From an uncultured bacterium (GTDB lineage: Bacteria > Acidobacteriota > Thermoanaerobaculia > Thermoanaerobaculales > Thermoanaerobaculaceae): a stretch of 64,000 nucleotides of DNA. The stretch covers positions 1 to 64,000 of the forward strand of contig CALEVZ010000037.1 of the NCBI GenBank assembly GCA_937924755.1. Reading direction: 5' to 3'. Of the stretch, positions 33,896 through 34,583 are shown in pieces. A program made the position numbers and the translations under genes. The notes beneath the pieces are model-generated. The model was given only the letters and a program-made list of their open reading frames with translations, did no database searches and had not been told where the DNA came from. The number at the start of each line of letters is the position of its first letter. Position 1 is the stretch's first letter.

Positions 33896-34441
33896 CTAGA
33901 GGGGGACGCCCAGGAGGGCGCGAATCCTCTGACGGCAGGGCCACACCAGCAGCAGCCCCAGCACCGCTGCCATCTCGAGGACCCAAAACCAGCGGGTGTC
34001 GGCCGACACGCACCACGCCGCCACGCCCATGACAGCCAGCGCCACCGCACGCACTAGCGCCACCCCCTGAGCGAGCAGGTGGGCGCGCAGAAGAGGTTCG
34101 GCGTCGGCACTGAGGGCGAAGACCCGGCGAGGGGAATCCATCATGGCCCGGCGGACAGGCAAAATGGTCAGCAGGTTGATTGCGGCGAGAATGAGGAGGA
34201 TGCCGACCAGCGCATCCCATTGGGCCAGCGGAGGAGCACCCGCAGGCCGCCCCAGCTGCGTAGGTAAAGCCGACAAGCCCACCAAGAACGCAGCCCCGAG
34301 ATGCATCCAGGTCAGCCGTCGCATGTGCCGGTGCATGGCTCTGCGCGCACTCCCCCCACGCCATCTCATCCTATGGGAGCAAAACCACTCGGTCAAATTG
34401 GCCGCGGATGATGAAGGGCGATCGACGTGAGGGTCGGACAT
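33896..34441 (-). CDS. Small multi-pass membrane protein of unknown function
   Basis: TM-like LTWMHLGAAFLVGLSAL, ALVGILLILAAINLLTILPV, FWVLEMAAVLGLLLVWP; start uncertain (MSDPH at 34441 or internal Met). Confidence 0.6.
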   Translation of the reverse strand: MSDPHVDRPSSSAANLTEWFCSHRMRWRGGSARRAMHRHMRRLTWMHLGAAFLVGLSALPTQLGRPAGAPPLAQWDALVGILLILAAINLLTILPVRRAMMDSPRRVFALSADAEPLLRAHLLAQGVALVRAVALAVMGVAAWCVSADTRWFWVLEMAAVLGLLLVWPCRQRIRALLGVPL

Positions 34442-34443
34442 AG

Positions 34444-34468
34444 CGAAACCCCGCACGGCGGGGTTTCG
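34444..34468 (-). terminator. Perfect 11-bp inverted repeat, terminator-like hairpin
   Basis: CGAAACCCCGC ACG GCGGGGTTTCG: AAACCCCGC/GCGGGGTTT layout typical of intrinsic terminators, immediately before ATG 34441 (minus). Confidence 0.75.
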
Positions 34469-34548
34469 ACTTGGCGGGAAGACCGCCCGGATCCTTGCAG
34501 TGGATGACGCGGCTGCGAGATCCGTTTAACGCCCGCGGCCTTGAGGGC
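34444..34548 (-). ncRNA. Candidate structured small RNA or attenuator leader
   Basis: Bounded by a promoter (34555-34583) and terminator-like hairpin (34444-34468) with further hairpins at 34473-34487 and 34489-34523; see findings. Confidence 0.45.
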
Positions 34549-34554
34549 ACTTTC

Positions 34555-34583
34555 AATATCGGTTGCGACCGGTCAGGTGTCAA
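34555..34583 (-). promoter_or_regulatory. Candidate sigma70 promoter with consensus -35
   Basis: On minus strand TTGACA - 17 bp - GATATT. Confidence 0.6.

Follow-up and report, generated by a model that had tools for sequence, protein, structure and literature searches.

A predicted stand-alone structured small RNA gene present once per genome in most Thermoanaerobaculales

Results

The 64,000-nucleotide stretch of DNA analysed here (the window) carries on its minus strand what we consider, with a probability of roughly 85%, to be a small RNA gene of the stand-alone kind, whose structured product of about 105 nt would act in trans. The element was previously uncatalogued and most probably represents a new family of such RNAs. 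Comparison among relatives delimits the gene, which occurs as a single copy, and reveals selection on its sequence, the stems P1, H1, H2 and the terminator, and independence from the neighbouring genes. The features listed next all lie on the minus strand.

34555..34583, minus strand: sigma-70-type promoter of the RNA gene, TTGACA-17-GATATT (-35 TTGACA at 34583-34578, -10 GATATT at 34560-34555)
34444..34548, minus strand: predicted small RNA, about 105 nt, with a start placed near 34548 by the promoter; conserved by covariance model in 31 of the order's 37 genomes
34538..34548, minus strand: P1, 5'-terminal hairpin GCC/GGC, found in nearly all relatives
34533..34537, minus strand: CGCGG, identical in 31 of 31 copies; may form the 5' side of a pseudoknot
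34488..34524, minus strand: H1 hairpin, CGGATC/GATCCG plus GCAG/CTGC with an internal loop; 7 of 10 pairs change on both sides in the alignment A3
34508..34512, minus strand: CCGCG within the loop of H1, identical in 31 of 31 copies; may form the 3' side of the pseudoknot
34473..34487, minus strand: H2 hairpin, GGCGG-TCTTC-CCGCC; always paired, with the middle C-G pair replaced by U-A in 2 rows and by U-G in 3
34444..34468, minus strand: terminator hairpin, a perfect 11 bp, CGAAACCCCGC/GCGGGGTTTCG; both partners change in 3 pairs, and every cell is paired
34368..34396, minus strand: promoter-like site of the membrane-protein gene, TTGACC-17-TAGGAT, outside the RNA gene
33896..34336, minus strand: downstream membrane-protein gene, a neighbour outside the RNA gene, with a likely start at ATG 34336; the starts in relatives follow the second promoter-like site

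Promoter and extent of the RNA gene

Two sigma-70-type matches occur in 10 kb, compared with 0.5 in shuffles, and the promoter of the RNA gene is the better one. The RNA has a promoter of its own in every copy, as TTGAC(A/G)-17/18-NNNATT is found immediately 5' of it in 31 of 31 copies. Predicted transcripts in the relatives are 104-113 nt long; the 97 nt listed for locus L059 arose because the script halted at an inner match. Identity between the two families that carry the RNA (f1 and f2) reaches 98% in the -35 box, 85% in the -10 box and 79% in the RNA core, and is near random in the promoter spacer (34%), in upstream DNA (31%) and in downstream DNA (29%).

Distribution of the RNA

In a DNA search of the family, ten other genomes yielded the stretch at 73-81% identity, and a covariance model (R1) was built from 11 sequences. 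R1 detects exactly one copy, promoter included, in each of 31 of the 37 Thermoanaerobaculales genomes, spread over two families and over 14 of 16 genera. It found no copy in the 112 genomes that make up the rest of the class. A 32nd genome (G034) holds a copy that is cut off at a contig edge. Two genomes (G004 and G016) have neither the RNA nor any close counterpart of the oxidoreductase gene that flanks it, which may mean that their assemblies lack the locus. The remaining case concerns genera g2 and g6 (G001, G005 and G008), where the oxidoreductase is present with no RNA after it; the RNA is therefore not indispensable.

An exact-pattern scan of GTDB r220 (approximately 85,000 species) returned 27 stretches, all from metagenome-assembled genomes of Acidobacteriota under titles such as Thermoanaerobaculales, Thermoanaerobaculum, Sulfomarinibacter and Holophagae. 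All 27 are recognised as the RNA by R1 and, to judge from positions and scores, come from the same genomes as the R1 set. An exact-pattern scan of viral contigs gave no match. Among the weak hits elsewhere in the phylum and class, six loci (25-29 bits) were inspected as candidate homologues beyond the order and proved to be terminators or apparently coding DNA; no copy of the element was found in the class or phylum outside the order.

Fold and covariation

For a 111-nt stretch spanning the element the folding energy is -52.3 kcal/mol, compared with a mean of -40.1 in shuffled sequences (z -3.5, 0/200 shuffles). Removal of the last hairpin brings the z score to about -1.3 in the window and to a mean of -1.0 over the 31 sequences. 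Because the excess comes mostly from this one hairpin, stability alone is insufficient for the claim, and the above-chance status of the element rests on conservation and covariation in relatives. The alignment A3 (31 sequences) was scored for a structure made up of H1, H2, the terminator and the possible pseudoknot. Paired cells amount to 97.6%, and 11 of the 31 pairs change on both sides. Such two-sided changes are seen in 39 cells, where shuffles average 10.2, and none of 500 shuffles, which retain shared ancestry, reaches any of five measures. In slid controls the paired cells fall to 29-44%.

These results bear on a simpler reading of the locus, namely a promoter and an ordinary terminator with the sequence between them conserved for another reason, such as a short peptide. 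The large share of the folding excess held by the last hairpin is in keeping with it, as is an 11-codon GTG frame in some f2 copies; that frame, however, is absent from most copies and from f1, and no frame is conserved across the 31 copies, for which reason the peptide was rejected. Neither a bare terminator nor a peptide would explain the covariation of H1, H2 and P1, and we regard this reading as very improbable.

Much of the initial annotation of this DNA is borne out by the comparison. It had read TTGACA, 17 bp and GATATT on the minus strand, and these elements lie where it put them, with a corresponding promoter in all 31 copies; the hairpin GGCGG-TCTTC-CCGCC (34473-34487), the perfect 11-bp terminator-like hairpin (34444-34468) and the absence of a convincing ORF over the element likewise agree with what we find. 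For a third hairpin of about 11 pairs at 34489-34523 the place was right (H1, 34524-34488) and the text of the strands was garbled. P1 had been missed. The annotation made its proposal depend on conservation and covariation of the stems in relatives, and both are present among the 31 sequences.

P1 begins at the predicted transcript start and is longer in relatives (GUCC/GGAC, GCCCGG/CCGGGC). Its first three pairs vary between G-C and A-U, between C-G, U-A and U-G, and between C-G and U-A, a pattern to be read with the bias towards pairing that comes from registering the 5' strand by folding. The RNA also has its own terminator, in the form of a covarying hairpin in all copies; the T-rich tract 3' of it is present in many f2 copies and is short in f1, including the window, and f1 terminators have no good U-run.

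Minimum-energy folds of single sequences contain H1 in 18 of 31 cases and H2 in 23 of 31, and the 5' block has competing pairings. In some of these folds the 5' GCGGG pairs with the 3' strand of H2. Loci L076 and L078 change both sides of H2 with no matching change in the 5' block, which favours H2 over that pairing. A 5-bp H-type pseudoknot may join CGCGG (34533-34537) to CCGCG (34508-34512), with no spacer between the 5' strand of H1 and CCGCG. Both of its strands are invariant and therefore offer no covariation, and a 5-bp match occurs in 13% of composition-matched shuffles, so that the pseudoknot remains a suggestion only. CsrA-type GGA motifs were considered and rejected, as ACGGA is not conserved and ACGGG, ACGAG and ATAGA occur.

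Neighbouring genes

Upstream of the RNA, all f1 loci carry a GFO/IDH/MocA oxidoreductase gene, and most f2 loci carry either a cytidine deaminase gene or a Pal-like gene in divergent orientation (Pfam was applied to the proteins of the window, and gene names outside it come from reading the sequences). The initial annotation placed the start of the downstream membrane protein at ATG 34441, directly after the last hairpin, and offered as one option a riboswitch or attenuator controlling 33896..34441. Neither proposal fits the comparative evidence. When the membrane protein is read from 34441, its homologues align with it from about residue 27-47 onwards. In the window and in 7 of 7 g5 loci examined, TTGACC-17/18-TANNNT lies between the RNA terminator and the membrane gene, and in the relatives it is followed by a ribosome-binding-like stretch and then by an ATG. 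The gene thus probably starts at ATG 34336 and not at ATG 34441.

A cis-acting leader of this kind would draw support from the orientation of many downstream genes, since the membrane-protein gene follows on the same strand in nine f1 genomes and a TrmH/SpoU-like methyltransferase gene does so in 13 f2 genomes, down to 35 nt past the RNA. In 9 of the 31 genomes, however, the downstream gene is convergent (a GTPase-like gene in three, a GAF/PAS sensor in six), and no function is common to the downstream genes. The oxidoreductase and membrane genes also adjoin each other with no RNA between them in G008 and G001, and the membrane gene has its own promoter-like site past the terminator. The RNA is thus kept independently of its flanking genes and does not consistently stand upstream of a co-directional gene that it could control. 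Synteny, empty sites and the second promoter-like site led us to reject the leader, which we judge extremely unlikely.

Comparison with known RNA families

The annotation had put the element forward as a candidate for something undescribed, to be checked against Rfam. No Rfam 15 family reaches its gathering cut-off at the element in the window, and in 20 relatives no family matches the element at E<=0.5. The open-licence literature, which covers the field incompletely, yielded no description of such an RNA. Matches to isrJ (RF01393; 21.2 of 37), RsmY (RF00195; 21.5 of 57) and the rnk leader (RF01772; 17.2 of 55) fall far under the gathering scores and were dismissed as terminator-driven, the feature shared with the element being the terminator-like hairpin AAACCCCGC/GCGGGGUUU; of the RsmY matches, the better one falls on the opposite strand.

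A diverged housekeeping RNA (6S or SRP) overlooked by the Rfam models would also appear as a single-copy, order-wide gene with a constitutive-looking promoter. The search for 6S RNA (RF00013) gave no match in the window's genome at E<=10, at the element or elsewhere, which is in keeping with such a reading; this absence means little, since the 6S model exceeded its cut-off in only 4 of 14 controls. 6S RNA is a long bulged helix and SRP RNA has an apical motif. The fold of the element contains neither, and together with the lack of any Rfam family in the relatives this makes an overlooked housekeeping RNA a most improbable explanation.

Acido-Lenti-1 RNA (RF01687) and Acido-1 are structured RNAs reported from Acidobacteria (PMC2864571) and, like the new element, are lineage-restricted structured RNA candidates. 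Acido-Lenti-1 differs in being a motif of 46 positions, and the new element has no Rfam match. An Acido-Lenti-1 RNA (53.6 bits) was observed at L074:2272-2318, approximately 660 nt from the new RNA gene and not overlapping it.

Discussion

A stand-alone sRNA of about 80-105 nt was the other option of the initial annotation, and it is the one favoured by the conserved promoter and terminator, the covarying stems, the single copy and the changing neighbours. Transcription, the pseudoknot, action in trans and any involvement of Hfq are inferences. RNA polymerase would start at the conserved TTGACA/NATATT promoter, and the 5' end would fold at once into P1 and then H1. The loop of H1 (CCGCG) may pair back to the 5' CGCGG to form the H-type pseudoknot; H2 would form next, and the terminator hairpin would end transcription. 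The released RNA would act in trans, most likely by regulating mRNAs, with or without the help of Hfq, or by binding a protein.

Hfq was found in 36 of the 37 genomes of the order, which makes an Hfq-assisted sRNA possible. In most of these genomes, those of the window (G000) and its relatives, there is a strong Hfq-like match and a second, weaker one, which often lies in a longer open frame. The element resembles stand-alone sRNAs of the Hfq type in its length, its own promoter, its 3' terminator hairpin and the presence of Hfq in the order. It differs from them in conserving stems and two short complementary G+C blocks rather than a long single-stranded seed, and in the weak U-run of f1. This mainly structural conservation counts against a simple antisense RNA. 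A further conceivable role is that of a compact pseudoknotted RNA with an order-specific, near-housekeeping function through protein or ligand binding, a functional kind undescribed before, which we hold to be unlikely.

To our knowledge, small RNAs have been little studied in Acidobacteriota. The predicted gene would add a sharply bounded, covariation-supported RNA family that is found once per genome in nearly all of one order, and the likely start of a neighbouring membrane-protein gene is corrected alongside. The family comes with a covariance model ready for use and with defined ends on both sides, and genera g2 and g6 provide natural lines without the RNA.
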